Shown piece after piece: positions 1,168-18,377 of a DNA stretch of 38,180 bases. The translations under genes were made by a program, and so were the position numbers. Below the pieces are notes generated by a model. The model did no database searches and was not told the origin of the DNA. It saw only the letters and a list, made by a program, of their open reading frames with translations. The DNA is from Pseudomonadota bacterium (lineage in GTDB: Bacteria; Pseudomonadota; Gammaproteobacteria; Burkholderiales; Burkholderiaceae_C). The stretch lies in NCBI GenBank assembly GCA_020161215.1, contig JAIUOM010000028.1:1-38180 (forward strand), given 5' to 3'. Within the stretch, counting starts at the first letter, position 1; each line of letters starts with the position of its first letter.

Positions 1168-1231
1168 GACAAAAAACGGCCGAAGGCCGGCGTGGATACA
1201 ACATGAATAGCTATTATTTTCATAGCTATTC
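1168..1231 (+). repeat. AT-rich dispersed repeat, copy R1 (cobT/cobS junction)
   Basis: This is a short element in the cobS-cobT gap. It has GCCGGCG at 1186-1192, then 15 bases, then TAGCTATT at 1208-1215, followed by a second TAGCTATT at 1223-1230. The word AATAGCTATT is its own reverse complement. The TAG stop codon of cobT (1226-1228, minus strand) lies inside the second box, so the repeat now forms the 3' end of that gene. Five other copies in the window share the same box spacing. Confidence 0.8.
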
Positions 1232-2260
1232 CCGGTCCGACACGCCGGCCGACTCAAAGCTGGCCATCTCGTTCAGCACCCGGCAGGCCGACTCCAGCAG
1301 CGGCCAGGCCAGGGCCGCGCCACTGCCCTCGCCGACGCGCAGACCCAGCGACAACAGCGGCTGGGCGCCCAGCAGTTGCAGCAGGCGCACGTGGCCGCGC
1401 TCGTCGGACTGGTGCGCAAACACGCAGCGCTGCAGCACGGCCGGGGCCAGCCGGCTGGCCACCAGCACGGCGGCGGAGGCGATGAAGCCATCGACCACGA
1501 TCACGCGCCGCTCGGCCGCCGCCTGCAGCACGCTGCCGACCAGGGTGGCGATCTCGAAGCCGCCCAAGGCCGCCAGCGCGGCCAGCGGCGCATCAGCGCC
1601 GGCATTGGCGGCCAGCGCCTGGCGCAGCACCGCCGTCTTGCGCGCGATGCCGGCGGCGTCCAGCCCGGTGCCAGCGCCGGTCACCTCGGCCACGTCCAGG
1701 CCGCCCAGGCGCGCCACCAGCAGCGAGGCGGCACTGGTGTTGCCAATACCCATCTCGCCCAGCAGCACGGCGTTGCCGGGCAGTGCCGCCACCAGGGCCT
1801 GGCCGTTGGCCAGCGCCTGGCTGCACTGGGCGGCGGTCATGGCCGGGCCGACGCTGCTGTCGGCGCTGCCGGGCGCGATCTTGCGGATCAGCAGCCCCGG
1901 CACGGGCGAAAAATCATGCCGCACGCCGCAGTCCACCACCGTCTGGGCGATGCCGTGCTGGCGCGCCAGCACGCTCACCGCCGCGCCGCCGGCCAGGAAG
2001 TTGCCGACCATCTGCCAGGTCACATCGCTCGGGTAGACCGACACGCCGCGCGCCGCGATGCCGTGGTCGGCGGCAAACACCAGCAGCTGCGGCGCCTGCA
2101 ATTGCGGCTCGCGCGTGCCCAAAATCATGCCGAGCCGGTGCGCCAGCTCGGCCACGCGGCCCAGTGCGCCGTGCGGCACGGTCTTGCGGTCCAGCGCGTG
2201 CTGCAGTGCGGCGGCCAGGGCCGGGTCGTGCAAATCGGCAATCTCGGGCAGTTCGGTCAT
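1226..2260 (-). CDS. cobT: Nicotinate-nucleotide--dimethylbenzimidazole phosphoribosyltransferase
   Basis: The 344-residue protein matches the CobT family in length. It transfers phosphoribose from nicotinate mononucleotide to 5,6-dimethylbenzimidazole, giving alpha-ribazole phosphate for the lower ligand of B12. Diagnostic segments are FAADHGIAARGVSVYPSDVT near residue 72, GNFLAGGAAVSVLA near 105 and the glycine-rich GEMGIGNTSAASLL near 168, which lines the substrate pocket. The start is ATG at 2260. There is no clear Shine-Dalgarno, and the 96-base gap to cobQ contains repeat R2. The last codons (SDRE, then TAG) run into repeat R1, so the native C-terminus may have been altered by that element. 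Confidence 0.95.
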   Translation of the reverse strand: MTELPEIADLHDPALAAALQHALDRKTVPHGALGRVAELAHRLGMILGTREPQLQAPQLLVFAADHGIAARGVSVYPSDVTWQMVGNFLAGGAAVSVLARQHGIAQTVVDCGVRHDFSPVPGLLIRKIAPGSADSSVGPAMTAAQCSQALANGQALVAALPGNAVLLGEMGIGNTSAASLLVARLGGLDVAEVTGAGTGLDAAGIARKTAVLRQALAANAGADAPLAALAALGGFEIATLVGSVLQAAAERRVIVVDGFIASAAVLVASRLAPAVLQRCVFAHQSDERGHVRLLQLLGAQPLLSLGLRVGEGSGAALAWPLLESACRVLNEMASFESAGVSDRE

Positions 2261-2356: not shown

Positions 2357-4084
2357 CTACTCCAGCAGCGCTTGCAGCACGCCGGGGGCGAAATGGGCTT
2401 GCACCCCCGCGGCCAGGCCTTCAAACACGTCGTCCAGCGACCGCACCTCGGCGCCCCACAGCGCGCGCAGCACGGCGGCGTCCTCGAACAGGCCGTGCAG
2501 GTACATGCCCAGCACGTTGCCGGCCGGGTTCTGCCAAGCCAGGTTGGGGATGACTTCGCGCGCCACGTCGCCCTTGGCCGCCATGGCCGGGTGCTGGGCG
2601 GTCTGGCCGCTGTGGATCTCGTAACCGCTCACCGCCACGCCCGACAGCGCCGCCCACGGGCCGGTCACGGCCTCAAAGCGGGTGTGGGTGTGGCGCACGG
2701 TTTTGTTGGAATCGAAACTGGTCACCAGCGGCAAGAGCCCCAGCCCCGGCCCATTGGTGTCATGACCACCCCCACGCTCCCCCGCTGCGCGTGGTCCGCT
2801 GCCCCCCGAGGGGGCCGCACCCGGCCTTGGGAGCGGCCCAGCACCCGGGTGGTCGCCCGGACAAACAGGCTCCACCCCATGCACATCGATCAGCGCCTCG
2901 CCCAGCATCTGCAGCCCGCCGCAAATGCCCAGCACGCGGCCCCCGCGCGCGGCGTGTTCGGCGATGGCGGCGTCCAGGCCCTGGGCGCGCAGCCAGGCCA
3001 GGTCGGCCGCCGTGGCCTTGCTGCCGGGCAGCACCACGGTGTCGGCGCCGCCCAGCTCGGCCGGCGTGCGCGCCCAGACCAGGCGCACGCCGGGCAGGTT
3101 CTTGAGCGGCTGAAACTCGTCCAGATTGCTGATGCGCGGGTAGGCGACCACGGCGACGTGGCGCGGCGCGCCCTGCAGCGCACCCTGCGGGGCGGGCGGC
3201 GCGCCGGGCGTGGCGCGGTCGTCGAACACGCCGTCTTCCTCCGGCAGGCCGTGCTGCCAGTGCATGGGAATGGTGGCCACCGTGGGCACGCCGGTCAGCG
3301 CCTGCAGTTGCTCGGGCGCGGGGGCCAGCAGGGTGGCGTCGCCTCGGAACTTGTTCAGCACGAAGCCGTGGATGCGCGCCCGATCGGCCTCGGGCAGCAG
3401 CGCCCAGGTGCCGTACAGGTGGGCGAAGGCACCACCGCGGTCGATGTCGGCCACCAGCAGGCAGCGCGCGTCGGCATGGCGCGCCACGCGCAGGTTGACG
3501 ATGTCGCTGGCCATCAGGTTGATCTCGGCCGGCGAGCCGGCGCCTTCGATCACCACCACGTCGTTTTCCGCACGCAGCGCGTCCAGCGACGCGGCGATCT
3601 CGGGCCACACCCGCTCGCCACGCCCGCGCCAGGGCACATCGGTCAGCTCGCGCTGCACCCGACCCAACAGCACCACCTGGCTGCGCGTGTCGGCCTCGGG
3701 CTTGAGCAGCAGCGGGTTCATGCGCACATCGGGTTCGGCGCGGGCAGCCAGGGCCTGGAAATACTGGGCAGAACCGATCTCGCCCCCACGCTCCACGGCT
3801 TCGCCTGTTGCGCTGCCCCCCGAGGGGGCCTCACCCGGCCTTGGGAGCGGCCCGGCGACCGGGTGGTCGCCCCCACGCTCCACGGCTTCGCCTGTTGCGC
3901 TGCCCCCCGAGGAGGCCGCGCCCGGCCAACCCGCCACCACCCGCGCGTTGTTGCTCATGTTCTGCGCCTTGAACGGCGCCACTTTCAACCCCTGGTTGGC
4001 GTAGTAGCGGCACAGCGCCGTGGTCAGCCAGCTTTTGCCGGCGCCGCTGCTGGTGCCCAGGACCATGATGCAGCGGGCGGTCAT
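2357..4084 (-). CDS. cobQ: Cobyric acid synthase with two in-frame repeat insertions
   Basis: This glutamine-dependent amidase converts adenosylcobyrinate diamide to cobyric acid. At 575 residues it is well above the usual 480-510. The N-terminal ATPase domain shows GTSSGAGKSWL (P-loop, about residues 11-21) and KAQNMSNN (about 39-46). The class I amidotransferase domain has its nucleophile in LGICGGLQMLG (Cys about 388), with GYEIHSG and the GMYLHGLF histidine near the end. The excess length is two low-complexity inserts. One (about residues 51-100) separates QNMSNNARVV from GGEIGSAQ, which adjoin in relatives. The other (about 411-442) interrupts the loop before GPGLGLLPLVT. Both coincide with GC-rich DNA repeats. 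I prefer ATG 4084, which has GAGG eight bases upstream, to the GTG at 4105. Whether the enlarged enzyme is active cannot be told from sequence. Confidence 0.93.
   Translation of the reverse strand: MTARCIMVLGTSSGAGKSWLTTALCRYYANQGLKVAPFKAQNMSNNARVVAGWPGAASSGGSATGEAVERGGDHPVAGPLPRPGEAPSGGSATGEAVERGGEIGSAQYFQALAARAEPDVRMNPLLLKPEADTRSQVVLLGRVQRELTDVPWRGRGERVWPEIAASLDALRAENDVVVIEGAGSPAEINLMASDIVNLRVARHADARCLLVADIDRGGAFAHLYGTWALLPEADRARIHGFVLNKFRGDATLLAPAPEQLQALTGVPTVATIPMHWQHGLPEEDGVFDDRATPGAPPAPQGALQGAPRHVAVVAYPRISNLDEFQPLKNLPGVRLVWARTPAELGGADTVVLPGSKATAADLAWLRAQGLDAAIAEHAARGGRVLGICGGLQMLGEALIDVHGVEPVCPGDHPGAGPLPRPGAAPSGGSGPRAAGERGGGHDTNGPGLGLLPLVTSFDSNKTVRHTHTRFEAVTGPWAALSGVAVSGYEIHSGQTAQHPAMAAKGDVAREVIPNLAWQNPAGNVLGMYLHGLFEDAAVLRALWGAEVRSLDDVFEGLAAGVQAHFAPGVLQALLE
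2765..2861. repeat. GC-rich repeat unit inside cobQ (second insertion)
   Basis: The stretch shares CCCCCACGCTC, GCTGCCCCCCGAGGGGGCC, CGGCCTTGGGAGCGGCCC and CCGGGTGGTCGCC, in this order, with the unit at 3781-3870. It is translated without a stop on the minus strand as a Gly/Pro/Arg-rich segment of CobQ (about residues 411-442). CCCCC..GGGGG inside the unit can form a hairpin. Confidence 0.85.
3781..3932. repeat. Tandem GC-rich repeat inside cobQ (first insertion)
   Basis: A 60-base unit at 3781-3840 recurs almost perfectly at 3868-3927, a period of 87 bases (29 codons). The encoded protein therefore carries SGGSATGEAVERGG twice. The spacer CGGCCTTGGGAGCGGCCC...GGGTGGTCGCC matches the repeat at 2821-2858. 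Because the period is a multiple of three the cobQ frame stays open. Confidence 0.9.
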
Positions 4085-4174
4085 GGGGTGAACCTCGTGC
4101 GGCACTGGGGCAAACCCAGGCCGGTCGAAAAAAATGCGTCAGTTTTCATTGGCAGACTCTTGTCGGACCAGGGT

Positions 4175-6817: not shown

Positions 6818-6835
6818 CAATCGTCTCTCCAAATG

Positions 6836-6952
6836 GCCGCGGAGCAGGCCAGCCCAGCGAACGCCGTGGAAGGGCTTGGCCCGCCCACTGGCGTTGTCCC
6901 CCCTCGCGCAGCAGAGGGGGGAAGGCGCCGAAGGCGACTCAGGGGGGTGTTC
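6836..6952. repeat. GC-rich hairpin repeat between cobO and ogt
   Basis: The element runs from GGCCGCGGAGCAGGCC at 6836-6851 to CAGGGGGG near 6947. An 8-base perfect stem, CCCCCCTC (6898-6905) with GAGGGGGG (6914-6921), is followed by GGCGCCGAAGGCG. The end words match the repeats at 17181-17456 and 18266-18377. It may attenuate transcription between cobO and ogt. Confidence 0.75.
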
Positions 6953-11741: not shown

Positions 11742-13136
11742 TCATGATATCGCCGCCGTCGGCAGGAACAGCTGGGCGGTGGCCTCGGGGCTGGAGGCAA
11801 ACCAGGCGTGGAAATAGCTGGCGCGCAGCGTGCCGACCGGCCCGGCGGCGTACACCGCCTCGCCCCTGCGGCCCGCGCTGCCGGCGGCCGGCTCGGTGTG
11901 GGCCGTGGGGGCCAGCGGGGTGTCGGCCACCGAATAGTGAAAGGTGTGGCCGCGCAGCGGCGCCACATCGGCCGCCAGGCGCCACTGCTGCATGCCCAGG
12001 CCCCCCAGGCGCGCCTGCATGCGCACCCGACCCGGCAGCAGGCCCCACAGGGCGTGGCTGGCGCCGTCGGCGTCCACCAGTTCGTCGAACAGCGCCATCA
12101 TGCCGCCGCATTCGGCCCACACCGGGCGCTTGGCCTGCACGTGGGCGTGCAGCTGCTCGCGCAGCCCGGCGTGCGCGGCCAGGGCGGCGGCGTGCAGCTC
12201 GGGGTAGCCACCGGGCAGCCAGAGCGCGTCGCAGTCCGGCAGCGGCTCGCCCGCCAGGGGCGAGAAAAACGCCAGCTGCGCGCCCAGTGCCTGCAGCACC
12301 TGGACGTTGGCGGGGTAGATGAAGGCAAAGGCCGCGTCGCGCGCCACGGCGATGCGGTGGCCGGCCAGCCGCTGGGGCAGCGGCTCGGCCCCAGCAGGCA
12401 GGGCAGTGGGCGCAAAAGCCACCGACCAGCGCGCCCGCCAGTCGGCCAGGCCGAATTGGCCAAGCGGGGTGGCCGCCAGCAGGTCGGCGGCGGCGTCCAG
12501 GCGCGCCAGGGCGTCGGCCGGTGCCAGTTCGTGCGCCGCCGTCAGGCCCAGGTGCCGCTCGGGCAGGTGCAGGGCCGGGCTGCGCGGCAGATGCCCGAGC
12601 CAGTCGGAGGCCGGTCGCACGGCCGATTGCAGCAGCGCGGCGTGCCCGTCGCTGGCCACGCCATTGGCCAGTACCCCGGCCCAGGGCAAGTCTGGCTCAC
12701 CTTCATCCCGATAGTGCTTGAGGCCATGCGCGATGGCGCCCAGGGTCTGGGCCATGGCGCCGGCCTGGACCACGGCCAGCACCGGCAGGCCGAGGCGGCG
12801 CGCCAGGTCGGCGGGGCTGGGCGTGCCGTCGTGCAGGCCCATCACGCCCTCGACCAGCAGCAGGTCGGCGTCCTGGGCAGCGGCGTGCAGGCGCGCGCGC
12901 GCATCGGCTTCGCCGGTCATCCACAGGTCGACGTTGTCCACCGGCGCGCCGCTGGCCAGTTGCAGCCAGAACGGGTCGAGAAAGTCCGGCCCGCACTTGA
13001 ACACCCGCACCCGCCAGCCGCGCCGCACCGCCAGCCGCGCCAGCGCGGCGCAGACGGTGGTCTTGCCCTGCCCCGACGCCGGGGCCGCCACCAGCAGCGC
13101 CGGGCAGAGCACGGGGGTCTGGGCGCTGGCGTTCAC
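11742..13136 (-). CDS. cobB: Cobyrinate a,c-diamide synthase
   Basis: The 464-residue glutamine amidotransferase amidates the a and c side chains of cobyrinate. The N-terminal ATPase P-loop is APASGQGKTT (about residues 18-27), followed by VFKCGPDFLDP. LLVEGVMGLHDG lies in the middle of the synthetase domain. The C-terminal amidotransferase domain has its nucleophile in ECGGMM (Cys about 343) and a late histidine in SYFHAWF (about 443). GTG 13136 is chosen because it overlaps the btuB stop as GTGA. Length fits the family. CobB acts before CobQ; its presence implies that the cell makes or receives cobyrinate. Confidence 0.94.
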   Translation of the reverse strand: MNASAQTPVLCPALLVAAPASGQGKTTVCAALARLAVRRGWRVRVFKCGPDFLDPFWLQLASGAPVDNVDLWMTGEADARARLHAAAQDADLLLVEGVMGLHDGTPSPADLARRLGLPVLAVVQAGAMAQTLGAIAHGLKHYRDEGEPDLPWAGVLANGVASDGHAALLQSAVRPASDWLGHLPRSPALHLPERHLGLTAAHELAPADALARLDAAADLLAATPLGQFGLADWRARWSVAFAPTALPAGAEPLPQRLAGHRIAVARDAAFAFIYPANVQVLQALGAQLAFFSPLAGEPLPDCDALWLPGGYPELHAAALAAHAGLREQLHAHVQAKRPVWAECGGMMALFDELVDADGASHALWGLLPGRVRMQARLGGLGMQQWRLAADVAPLRGHTFHYSVADTPLAPTAHTEPAAGSAGRRGEAVYAAGPVGTLRASYFHAWFASSPEATAQLFLPTAAIS

Positions 13137-14968
13137 CGCTGCGGCGTCCAGCGCAGGCCGAGGTAGAACGTGCGGCCCGGCGTGGCGTAGCTGCGTGCCA
13201 GTTGATAGTCGCGGTCGGCCAGGTTGTCCAGGCGCGCCAGCAGCTGCCATTCGCGCGCGATGGTGGTGCTGGCGTACAGGTTGACCACGCCGTAGCCCGG
13301 CAGTTGCTTGGTATTGGCCGCATCGTCGAAGCGGTGGCTGACGGCCTGCCATTCGGCGCCCAGGGTCCAGCCGGCCACGCGGGTGTCGGCATTGAGCTTC
13401 AGGATGCGCTTGGCTCGCCGGGCCAGTTGCTTGTCGGTGATGTCGTCCTTGGGGTCCTGCAGATCCAGCGAGCCGCCCAGGTTGATGCCGGCCAGCCGGT
13501 GGCCACCGGAAATGGTCACCCCGCGCAGCACGGCGCGGCCGGTGTTCTCGTAGCAGCCAAAGGTCGAATTGCAGAGCCCCGCGGCGCCGAAGGTGATCAG
13601 GTTCTTGACCCGGTTCTGGTAGGCCACGACGGCAAAGTGGCTCGACTTCTCGGCCCAGTGCAGGCCCAGCTCCAGGTTGCGGCTTTTCTCCGCCGTCAGC
13701 TCGGGGTTGCCGTACTGGGAAAAGCGCTGGTAGAGCGTGGGCACGCGAAACGCCGTGCCAACGGCACCGGTGACGCGCCAGCCGGGCGCAAAGCCGTAGC
13801 CGTAGGCCGCGCCACCGGTGGTCTGGCCGCCGAACTCGCTGTCGCGGTCGTGCCGCACATTCAACTGCAGCGTGTGCGCGCCGTGCGTGTAGCCGTAGCC
13901 CAGCGCCAGCGCGTTCTGGTGCCGGCCCTGGTCGATGGGGGCGTTGCGCAGCTTGTCCTCGCGCCGCTCCAGCGCGGCGGTGAGCAGGTGGTCGCCCTGG
14001 CGCCACTCGTTCTGGAACAAATAGTTGCGCAGCGTGGTGCGCGTCATGTACGGCGACGGCGTGGTCTCGTAGCGCTGCTGCGATTCGCTGACCGACAGGC
14101 GGGTGCTGTAGTTGGGCGTCCACTTGGCGTTCCAGGCCGCGCCCAAGGTGTTCAGGCGGCTGTCGGACATGTCGTGCAGATTGGGGGTGAAGCCGTCGTA
14201 GCCGGAGCGAATGCTGGTGTGGGTGCCGCTCAGCTCCAGGCGGTGTTCCTTGTTCAGCTGCCAGCCCAGGCGGCCGCTGGCGGCGGTCTGGCGGTAACCG
14301 TCGCGGTCCGGGTTGCCCACCCCGGGGCGGGTGTTGAAGCCGCGGCTGGTGTCGCGCTCCAGGCCCAGGGCGTAGTCGACGTCGCCTTGCTTGCCGGCAA
14401 AGCCGGCTTCCAGACGACCGCTGTGGTGCGAGCCAACGCCCACACCGACATAGGGGCTGAACGGGCCGTCGCCCTTGCGGGTGAAGATCTGCACCACACC
14501 GGCGATGGCGTCGGAGCCGTAGACGGCGGCGGCGGGGCCACGCACGATCTCGATGCGCTCGACCTGGCCGAGGGCAATGGCCTCCCAGGGCGCGCCGCCG
14601 GTGGACTGGGTGTCGACCCGGATGCCGTCGATGTAGACGGCGGTGAAACGGTTCTCGGCCCCGCGCATGAACAGGCTGGTGGTGGCGCCGGGGCCGCCGT
14701 TGCGCGACAGCTCCAGGCCGGGTTGGCGCTGCAGCAGATCGGCGATGGTGACGGCGCCGCTTTGCTCGATCTGAGTGCGATCGAGCAAGGTGACGTCGGC
14801 CAACACGTCGGTCAGCGGCTGCGCCACGCGGGTGGCTGTGACCACGGTATCGGGTAGGTTGGGGGCACTGAGCTGGGCCACGGTCTGGGCCAAGGCAGGC
14901 GTGGCCAGCAGGCACGACAAAGCACACGGCAGGGCGGCAGGCCGGAACGGAAGGGAAGCAATGGACAT
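13133..14968 (-). CDS. btuB: TonB-dependent outer-membrane cobalamin receptor
   Basis: The 611-residue receptor has a signal peptide ending ATPALAQ (about residue 28), a TonB box DTVVTATR (40-47), a plug domain with the RQPGLELSRNGGPGATTSLF region and VYIDGIRVD, then a long beta-barrel ending in an aromatic-rich strand (TFYLGLRW). It imports corrinoids across the outer membrane using TonB energy and feeds the btuFCD system of the same operon. It is the first gene after the cobalamin riboswitch. ATG 14968 gives a proper signal peptide but has no strong Shine-Dalgarno; a GTG at 14980 is an alternative. Codon and motif content agree with a B12 rather than siderophore receptor. Confidence 0.93.
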   Translation of the reverse strand: MSIASLPFRPAALPCALSCLLATPALAQTVAQLSAPNLPDTVVTATRVAQPLTDVLADVTLLDRTQIEQSGAVTIADLLQRQPGLELSRNGGPGATTSLFMRGAENRFTAVYIDGIRVDTQSTGGAPWEAIALGQVERIEIVRGPAAAVYGSDAIAGVVQIFTRKGDGPFSPYVGVGVGSHHSGRLEAGFAGKQGDVDYALGLERDTSRGFNTRPGVGNPDRDGYRQTAASGRLGWQLNKEHRLELSGTHTSIRSGYDGFTPNLHDMSDSRLNTLGAAWNAKWTPNYSTRLSVSESQQRYETTPSPYMTRTTLRNYLFQNEWRQGDHLLTAALERREDKLRNAPIDQGRHQNALALGYGYTHGAHTLQLNVRHDRDSEFGGQTTGGAAYGYGFAPGWRVTGAVGTAFRVPTLYQRFSQYGNPELTAEKSRNLELGLHWAEKSSHFAVVAYQNRVKNLITFGAAGLCNSTFGCYENTGRAVLRGVTISGGHRLAGINLGGSLDLQDPKDDITDKQLARRAKRILKLNADTRVAGWTLGAEWQAVSHRFDDAANTKQLPGYGVVNLYASTTIAREWQLLARLDNLADRDYQLARSYATPGRTFYLGLRWTPQR

Positions 14969-15084
14969 GGGAGAGCACACACGGATGACACGCCCCGACC
15001 GGCTCCCCGCCAGCGTATGGGGCAACATGACTGCCCAGCTTGCCGCAGCGCGCCTAGGCGCGAGCGGACCGCCGGGCGGTCGCC

Positions 15085-15292
15085 TCGTTGGCCGGTATCC
15101 GGGCTGGCGGAGGTCGCTCCGGGGGCCTCGCCTTCCCGGCGTCGCACAAAGCGCGCGCCAGTGGCGGTGTGAGGCTGGAGCCGGCACCCGAATGACAAGC
15201 ATCCAGGCACCATCCGCTTACCGTTGCGGGGGCAGCGCAGGTTAGGCCGTGGACCGTGGCGGTCCGCAGGCCCCCCTGCTTCCCGTTGAACT
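15085..15292 (-). promoter_or_regulatory. Cobalamin riboswitch
   Basis: The leader of btuB contains, in transcript order, AACGGGAAGCAGGG (15287-15274), CTGCGCTGCCCCCGCAACGG (15240-15221), ACCGCCACTGG (around 15168-15158), a CGGGAAGGCGAGGCC element (15138-15124) and the B12 box CCAGCCCGGATACCGGCC (15107-15090). These are the conserved blocks of the adenosylcobalamin aptamer. An inverted repeat (GGACCGCCGGGCGGTC, around 15066-15081) lies between aptamer and start codon and could be part of the switch. No T-run follows it, which points to control of translation or Rho-dependent ending rather than an intrinsic terminator. High B12 should lower expression of the operon. Confidence 0.96.
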
Positions 15293-15333
15293 GCGGCCGC
15301 GAGAATCGCGGCGCGCGAGCACCAACGCGGTCC

Positions 15334-15375
15334 ATTGTACGGCCCCTGCGGGCGCACCCGGCCTACCCCTACAAT
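15334..15375. promoter_or_regulatory. Probable divergent promoter region (btuB and zapB-like gene)
   Basis: TACAAT occurs on the minus strand at 15339-15334, about 40 bases before the riboswitch, and on the plus strand at 15370-15375, about 29 bases before the zapB-like start. Both are good -10 hexamers at suitable distances. I see no convincing -35 element for either. Confidence 0.45.
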
Positions 15376-17180: not shown

Positions 17181-17456
17181 CCCCCGAAGCGCCTGACGGC
17201 GCCTCCCCCAGGGGGCGGGCCGGCCGCTTCGGAGCGGCCGTGCGCGGCGGCCCCTGGGCTGGCCTGCTGGGCGAAAATTGACGCCCGCCGAAGCGCCTGC
17301 GGCGCTTCCCCCAGGGGGCGGGCCGGCCGCTTCGGAGCGGCCGTGCGCGGCGGCCCCTGGCGTGGCCTGCTCCGCGGCCTCTTGAAGAGATCGAAGCCTC
17401 CCGAAGCACCTGCAGTGGATCCCCCAGGGAAATGGGCTGCTGCGCGGCCTTGGGTG
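17181..17456. repeat. GC-rich tandem repeat array (two full copies, one degenerate)
   Basis: This fills most of the 368-base gap between the two TauE-like genes. A unit starting CCGAAGCGCCTG at 17184 recurs at 17288 (period 104), and a degenerate copy starts at 17401. The two full copies share CCCCCAGGGGGCGGGCC and the palindrome-like GGCCGCTTCGGAGCGGCC followed by GTGCGCGGCGGCCCCTGG. Strong hairpins are predicted by eye. An inverted relative lies at 18266-18377. Confidence 0.9.
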
Positions 17457-18265: not shown

Positions 18266-18377
18266 ATACCCCTCGAAAGGCCGCGGAGCAGGCCATACGG
18301 GGAGCCGCTGCGCACGGCCGCCCGAAGCGGCCGGCTCGCCCCCCAGGGGCGGAGGCGCCGAAGGCGCTTCTGGGGGG
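18266..18377. repeat. GC-rich hairpin repeat at the 3' end of hemN
   Basis: The inverted relative of the array at 17181-17456. The 8-base stem CCCCCCAG (18339-18346) with CTGGGGGG (18370-18377), plus an inner GGCGCC stem, ends directly at the hemN stop codon. It may act as a terminator or mRNA end stabiliser for hemN, although no T-run follows. Confidence 0.8.

Follow-up and report, generated by a model that had tools for sequence, protein, structure and literature searches.

The contig analysed here (the window, a stretch of 38,180 nucleotides) carries a cobyric acid synthase gene, cobQ, whose reading frame contains GC-rich repeats. How such DNA came to lie in frame within this enzyme, and whether the gene still serves its function, are the questions that the locus raises.

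Repeat copies within the window cobQ

The 582-residue product of the gene (P0001) scores 494.9 bits against NCBIfam PRK00784.1 (cut-off 273) and 383.2 bits against TIGR00313 (cut-off 309.9), qualifying by equivalog profile as a CobQ/CbiP cobyric acid synthase, and its gene is the only full-length cobQ match in the window genome. Its neighbours resemble genes of cobalamin uptake and late assembly, several of them scoring under their models' cut-offs. The window bacterium probably salvages corrinoids, because CobJ/CbiH is found above cut-off in two of 29 genomes of the genus, the window genome not being one of them. The features that matter here are:

1226-2260, minus strand: cobT, neighbour of cobQ in the cobalamin gene cluster (TIGR03160, 409.1 bits; cut-off 319.3)
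2357-4105, minus strand: cobQ, cobyric acid synthase, 582 residues
2756-2863, minus strand: loop C insert, residues 415-450, between HGVEP and NGPGLGLL, as placed by alignment with relatives
2769-2858, plus strand: hairpin element, third copy, in loop C (nhmmer match 2769-2852, E 1.5e-15)
3161-3226, minus strand: interdomain linker (site B), which holds no element in the window cobQ
3783-3872, plus strand, opposite to cobQ: hairpin element, full copy, in loop A (nhmmer match 3783-3866, E 5.9e-16)
3788-3934, minus strand: loop A insert, residues 58-106, between NARVV and GGEIGSAQ, as placed by alignment with relatives
3869-3927, plus strand: hairpin element, truncated tandem copy, 87 nt on in loop A (nhmmer match 3869-3922, E 1e-9)
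13133-15202: BtuB-like receptor gene adjoining the riboswitch (TIGR01779, E 1.6e-131, under the model cut-off)
15073-15341, minus strand: cobalamin riboswitch (Rfam RF00174, 44.6 bits; gathering score 31.5)

The repeat described in a first-pass annotation of this DNA is real, since positions 3780-3840 and 3867-3927 agree at 58 of 61 bases with a spacing of 87, a multiple of three. The second loop-A unit is truncated to about 58 of about 87 nt. That annotation was right about this tandem pair but overlooked the third copy, which is 89% identical to the full loop-A copy and sits in cobQ at a distance of 1 kb from it; the single insertion site that it envisaged is in fact two, loop A and loop C. 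A profile of the element finds three matches in the whole window, all in cobQ, and no other at E 0.01; these E-values are not independent, as the 28 copies that went into the profile come from the same genome and two of them are these cobQ copies. Another GC-rich repeat family occurs in the window as direct and inverted copies (17197-17273, 17300-17376, 18273-18349 and 6824-6873), and none of these four places is matched by the profile of the cobQ element.

The proposal that about 50 residues had been added between segments that adjoin elsewhere also holds, the two being nearly adjacent in most relatives. The loop-A insert amounts to about 49 residues, and the NARV-to-GEIGSAQ spacing is 3-14 letters, mostly 3, 7 or 8, in 78 of 102 CobQ rows. 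Relatives do not all share an unrelated, non-repeat linker of the same length: beside these 78 short linkers, others carry recognisable repeats. A PDB sequence search with the protein returned nothing at 0.001. By fold, its predicted structure (AF2; mean pLDDT 80, most of the core confident) resembles CTP synthases, amidotransferases of the GatD/HisH type and dethiobiotin synthase, and these matches of the model fit CobQ but do not position loop A relative to the active site; the first-pass annotation suggested that the insert lies close to the nucleotide or substrate side. The segments with pLDDT below 50 are residues 64-104 and 416-447, in the inserts, and 291-301, in the interdomain linker. 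The model puts the loop-A insert at the tip of a β-hairpin (strands 54-58 and 107-111) with very low pLDDT (about 26-45), and both insert peptides are probably disordered.

The cobQ core is under purifying selection, with dN/dS of 0.22-0.31 against ten relatives (Nei-Gojobori count); the comparison with one of them, G016, gives dN 0.128 and dS 0.473. Columns invariant over 41 sequences are retained, including the P-loop and the invariant Cys and His, which we take to be the catalytic residues. The end branch of the window cobQ (0.16) is ordinary (median 0.14). With its frame open as well, the gene looks maintained, as had been claimed, and shows no sign of being a decaying pseudogene. It is also true that the insert has brought neither a stop nor a frameshift, but as a sign of maintenance the absence of a stop is weak evidence. 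A stop in a given frame occurs in 0-17% of 29 element copies, against 14-19% of random sequence of matched composition.

A dispersed hairpin element with a compensated stem

The window genome (4.5 Mb, 250 contigs) probably belongs to Ottowia as GTDB draws that genus, judged from sequence identity, because no difference separates the cobQ of one genome of the genus (G019, locus L116) from the cobQ of Ottowia sp. GY511 (L033). The element is about 80-90 nt long and multi-copy, with 35 matches in the window genome when the window unit is the query and 37 when a typed consensus is used. It is matched in 24 of the 29 genomes of the genus, in numbers from 3 to 68 where present, G015 having 68. The element-free genomes are G005, G012, G021, G026 and G027, and inspection of their loop A by eye revealed no recognisable repeat.

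Copies of the element share CCCCCACGCT at one end and have the CCCCCCGAGGGGG hairpin at their centre. The outer stem of a second hairpin varies by copy and is mostly still paired (ACCCG/CGGGT, CTTCG/CGAAG, CCGCG/CGCGG and others). A perfect 6-bp stem is found in 21 of 28 copies from the window genome, where shuffles expect 4.0, and in 21 of 32 copies from other genomes, where shuffles expect 4.8; the control repeated the search on that stretch after plain shuffling of its bases. These stems comprise 11 and 17 arm sequences respectively, numbers that include register changes, as the best register was taken for each copy. The stem is thus compensated, with pairing kept while the letters change. 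When 19 copies were aligned with MAFFT, RNAalifold detected hardly any covariation (1 of 14 pairs with changes on both sides, covariation term -0.18); we think that MAFFT probably misplaced the variable stem. In the window and eight loci, no Rfam family reached its gathering score on the element.

The unit had been thought intergenic outside cobQ, which did not survive a wider survey: all three window copies lie in cobQ, and ten of 21 clusters in the genome lie in frame inside genes, the rest being at gene ends, between genes or unassigned. The survey took 30 loci from the 35 matches, leaving out five weak ones, and joined them into the 21 clusters. An element was called in-gene where GC3 minus GC2 was at least 0.29 on both flanks, on one strand and without stops. 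Nine clusters have a coding signal on both flanks, eight of them in phase; at the ninth (L006), which is out of phase, the element sits where one frame has ended and the next has yet to begin. Loop A of cobQ and L020 were placed in genes by alignment or profile, and two clusters with weak same-strand codon signals (L013, out of phase, and L023, in phase) were not counted. The element lies in frame in genes for:

CobQ, at two sites (loop A and loop C)
acetoacetate-CoA ligase (L002)
a FemAB-like protein (L008)
a DUF2126 protein (L011)
CysN (L012)
UvrA (L015)
a NuoE/NuoF-like protein (L017)
a MoCF-domain protein (L020)
a molybdopterin-binding dehydrogenase (L030)

At L026 the element forms an in-frame N-terminal extension of the ispH product, the start codon of which is uncertain.

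Relatives with empty sites are at hand for three of these genes. Eleven congener loci were aligned per gene, out of 25 (uvrA), 20 (cysN) and 16 (acetoacetate-CoA ligase) genomes matched. The place of the uvrA insert is empty in ten of the eleven and filled in L146; in L156 two copies lie elsewhere in uvrA, and G002, G015 and G017 have copies in or at uvrA too, as judged by coordinates, outside the alignment. The cysN insert is absent from all eleven loci, one of which (L158) has a different insert of 21 residues there. At the acetoacetate-CoA ligase loop STPEQG^DIWWCN, two of the eleven loci (L171 and L174) carry the element and seven carry nothing, among them L177, which has an element match elsewhere in the gene. 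L170 and L173 have in this loop an internally repeated insert of about 80 residues (PAQAGI...DSRLRGND), a repeat of a known type that may likewise be dispersed.

The element recalls several known systems. Rickettsia palindromic elements (RPE) are palindromic repeats that occur between genes and in frame inside conserved genes (PMC10969869, PMC2229807). The window element is likewise a palindromic repeat dispersed in and between genes, and likewise lies in frame in conserved, still-open genes; it differs in its bacterial hosts, in being shorter (about 80-90 nt against about 150 bp) and in using both orientations, several frames and tandem arrays. The likeness is one of description, and we do not class the element as RPE. 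GTAG- and CGTC-tagged REPs within genes, often of 20-30 aa, include uvrA among their targets in other species, and different REPs occupy about the same recB site in two Xanthomonas species (PMC3733652). The window element is also intragenic and also targets uvrA, but it is longer, lacks the tags and shows no link to a Y1/RAYT transposase. GTAG/CTAC occurs anywhere in 3 of 29 copies against 30% of random window 98-mers, and CGTC/GACG in 11 of 29 against 61%. ERIC, the 107-bp form of Correia/NEMIS and the Yersinia YPAL are described as small non-autonomous repeats fused in frame to genes (PMC2229807). Like such MITEs, the element is small, multi-copy and too short for a transposase; compared with MITEs that have open frames, terminal inverted repeats and target duplication are not clearly evident at junctions read by eye, where the ends are ambiguous by a few bases. 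The portion of PMC2755013 at hand concerns CRISPR repeats only. A search of open-licence papers gave no description of the element or of cobQ as a target. Repeats in frame within genes, and different REPs at one site, are already known (PMC3733652); what looks new is the family of the element, its hosts as a group and the counted convergence on a single loop.

Scattered occupation of CobQ loops among relatives

The element is present in cobQ at 24 of 106 distinct loci, a share that may be high because the profile holds the window copies and the query that ranked the loci held the inserts. Its density is marked, with 34 matches in 161 kb of cobQ against one in 512 kb of flanking DNA. Loop occupancy, counted from profile hits alone, was followed on a quick CobQ tree built from core columns with a single rate matrix. 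This tree comprises 102 of 110 rows, mostly Comamonadaceae, and leaves out L114-L117 (duplicates of L034, L031, L033 and L062) together with L082, L138, L139 and L140; row L131 is the first frame only of a frameshifted gene and its long branch is spurious. Loop A holds the element in 14 of the 102 rows, with 13 changes on the best tree, nine of them forced by starred branches. Linker B holds it in ten rows (nine changes, six forced) and loop C in three. Shuffled labels give 13.4-13.5 changes for loop A and 9.7 for linker B, close to those observed, and element presence is therefore scattered as if at random; such counts do not separate gain from loss. The empty locus L054 and the filled locus L056 are sisters on the tree. 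All 11 element matches in linker B follow the orientation of the gene, against both orientations in loop A, where L113 has four copies and L119 three.

Within the window genus, loop A is filled by some repeat family in nine of 21 readable genomes, and the family is not always that of the window. In G022, G025, G013 and G017 it is a repeat of GEG type, matched 58-97 times in these genomes, and in G016 a third repeat, matched 62 times there; neither has a match in the window genome. The match numbers do not count whole copies, since half units, or one place read on both strands, account for many of them. Loop A of G017 has the GEG type and the window's element together. Since repeats that are locally abundant meet in one loop, the loop itself points to being the common factor. 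Relatives fill these loops of cobQ with the window's repeat or with entirely different ones, and the loops thus appear to serve as landing pads for DNA by which a gene would ordinarily be destroyed. Loop A also grows in other ways, since six of the 102 rows have a linker of 16-25 letters in which no repeat was recognised. The cobQ of Rhodoferax antarcticus (L087) has a 50-residue insert at a further place, after FGALA, with no match to the element profile. In G013, which has CobJ/CbiH above cut-off, cobQ is frameshifted at linker B at a GEG-type repeat (L131, 2367-2435), possibly as a split CobQ, as the cost of a bad landing or as a sequencing error.

Constraint on the inserts themselves was compared in loop C. 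The window insert against that of G016 gives dN 0.47 and dS 0.37 over 32 codons. G016 (L112) and G013 (L131) have a common loop-C insert that is 96% identical, the next-best copies in their genomes reaching 86-87% to the loop-C insert query. Between these two the insert shows no synonymous change in 25.7 sites and five nonsynonymous changes, with dS of 0.28 and 1.04 in the flanks. Plain neutral drift does not predict this conservation; recombination or a constraint on the hairpin could explain the lack of synonymous change in this one pair.

Origin of the inserts and their meaning

We propose, and consider it probable, that the cobQ insert is a non-autonomous hairpin repeat, similar to RPE and intragenic REPs, that persists in places where a flexible loop can take it up in frame. 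A dispersed hairpin repeat of about 80-90 nt would copy itself within genomes and sometimes land in genes, the function that copies such repeats to new places favouring A+T-richer spots. Copies that break the frame or the fold would be removed by selection, whilst in-frame copies in flexible surface loops would survive as a translated, probably disordered spacer peptide. Mobility, the selective filter, the disorder and the neutrality of the peptide are what we infer. Loops A and C of CobQ and its interdomain linker (B) would collect repeats repeatedly, in many cases from whichever family the species in question has in abundance. In the window, one insertion at loop A may have been followed by a single 87-nt step of tandem duplication, with a separate insertion at loop C. 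The sequence of events in the first-pass annotation, in-frame insertion of a hairpin repeat and then tandem duplication, is supported for loop A.

The density of copies in cobQ could also reflect targeting, whereby the element or its mover prefers the sequence of loop A or A+T-richer spots and cobQ is a true mutational hot spot. We regard this as possible, though rather doubtful. In ten coding insertions, A+T makes up 57% of the ten bases to the left of the element, where the null gives 30%, and at widths of 10, 15, 20 and 24 bases 0 of 10,000 draws were as high, the left-flank positions having first been picked after the profile was seen. All nine same-orientation loop-A insertions have AGA or AGG as the Arg codon of NARVV, as do 13 of the 93 remaining rows (Fisher 2e-7); support for the association is modest when independent pairs are compared (roughly 5.5 to 0, with a median p of 0.03). 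This codon is already AGG in two insert-free rows (L054 and L040), and in seven of the nine same-orientation insertions the element begins right after two Val codons (in L062 with changed bases). The codon bias suggests that sequence, and not tolerance alone, may matter. Against targeting, three repeat families share loop A, which tolerance explains more easily, AGA/AGG is found in only two of five opposite-orientation insertions, and no fixed target word was seen at the insertions. Nor was a clear target-site duplication seen at junctions read by eye, where the element ends are ambiguous by a few bases. As to the mover, a Y1/RAYT transposase is not supported by the distribution of Y1_Tnp and copies over the genus genomes. 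G015 (68 copies), G016, G024, G020 and G006 have copies and no Y1_Tnp match, an absence limited in G015, G020 and G006 by their being under 90% complete; G012 and G026 have Y1_Tnp and no copy. The two Y1 loci of the window genome (about 3.3 kb each) contain no element copy.

It is unlikely that the inserts are functional, with the peptide or the mRNA hairpin tuning the folding, regulation or interactions of CobQ. Many lineages carry them and the synonymous conservation of loop C in G016 and G013 is unusual, but the peptides vary in sequence, orientation, frame and copy number, the window loop C differs from that of G016 at nonsynonymous sites as much as given above, the model has low confidence there, and many relatives have no insert at all. 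That cobQ is no longer needed and tolerates junk whilst decaying is still harder to accept: CobQ may serve salvage only, with no CobJ/CbiH above cut-off in the window genome, and the G013 gene is frameshifted at the linker, yet the window gene keeps its 582-residue frame, its invariant columns, its low dN/dS and its ordinary branch, with other cobalamin genes around it. Removal of the insert from RNA or protein, in the manner of an intron or by splicing, would suit a strongly structured sequence common to unrelated genes. Excision would not need the frame, however, which is kept in eight of nine in-gene cases, and with copy number and orientation varying and no Rfam family at gathering scores, we think such removal highly improbable. 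The window genome is in 250 contigs, which might raise the suspicion of an assembly or binning artefact; the same loops are filled in many independent assemblies, including named isolates and the single-contig G010, and we give that explanation almost no credence.

The capture of a hairpin repeat by flexible loops can be extended to a wider proposal, which we put forward tentatively but which could well be correct. Loops of housekeeping enzymes, such as loop A and the linker of CobQ, the STPEQG^DIWWCN loop of acetoacetate-CoA ligase and loops of UvrA, would be standing landing pads on which unrelated mobile hairpins come together and are replaced at about the rate at which species split, their entry helped by a local sequence preference (an A+T-rich left flank, and the AGA/AGG codon at loop A of CobQ). 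CobQ provides a counted case, outside Rickettsia and across several genera, of hairpin repeats recurrently captured in the loops of one enzyme. The system makes it possible to test whether the inserts are neutral and whether hot spots arise from targeting or from tolerance. It is also a warning that mobile DNA may make up the variable 'linkers' of such proteins. If the landing-pad proposal is true, the length of protein loops in such bacteria would evolve largely by the capture of selfish hairpins.
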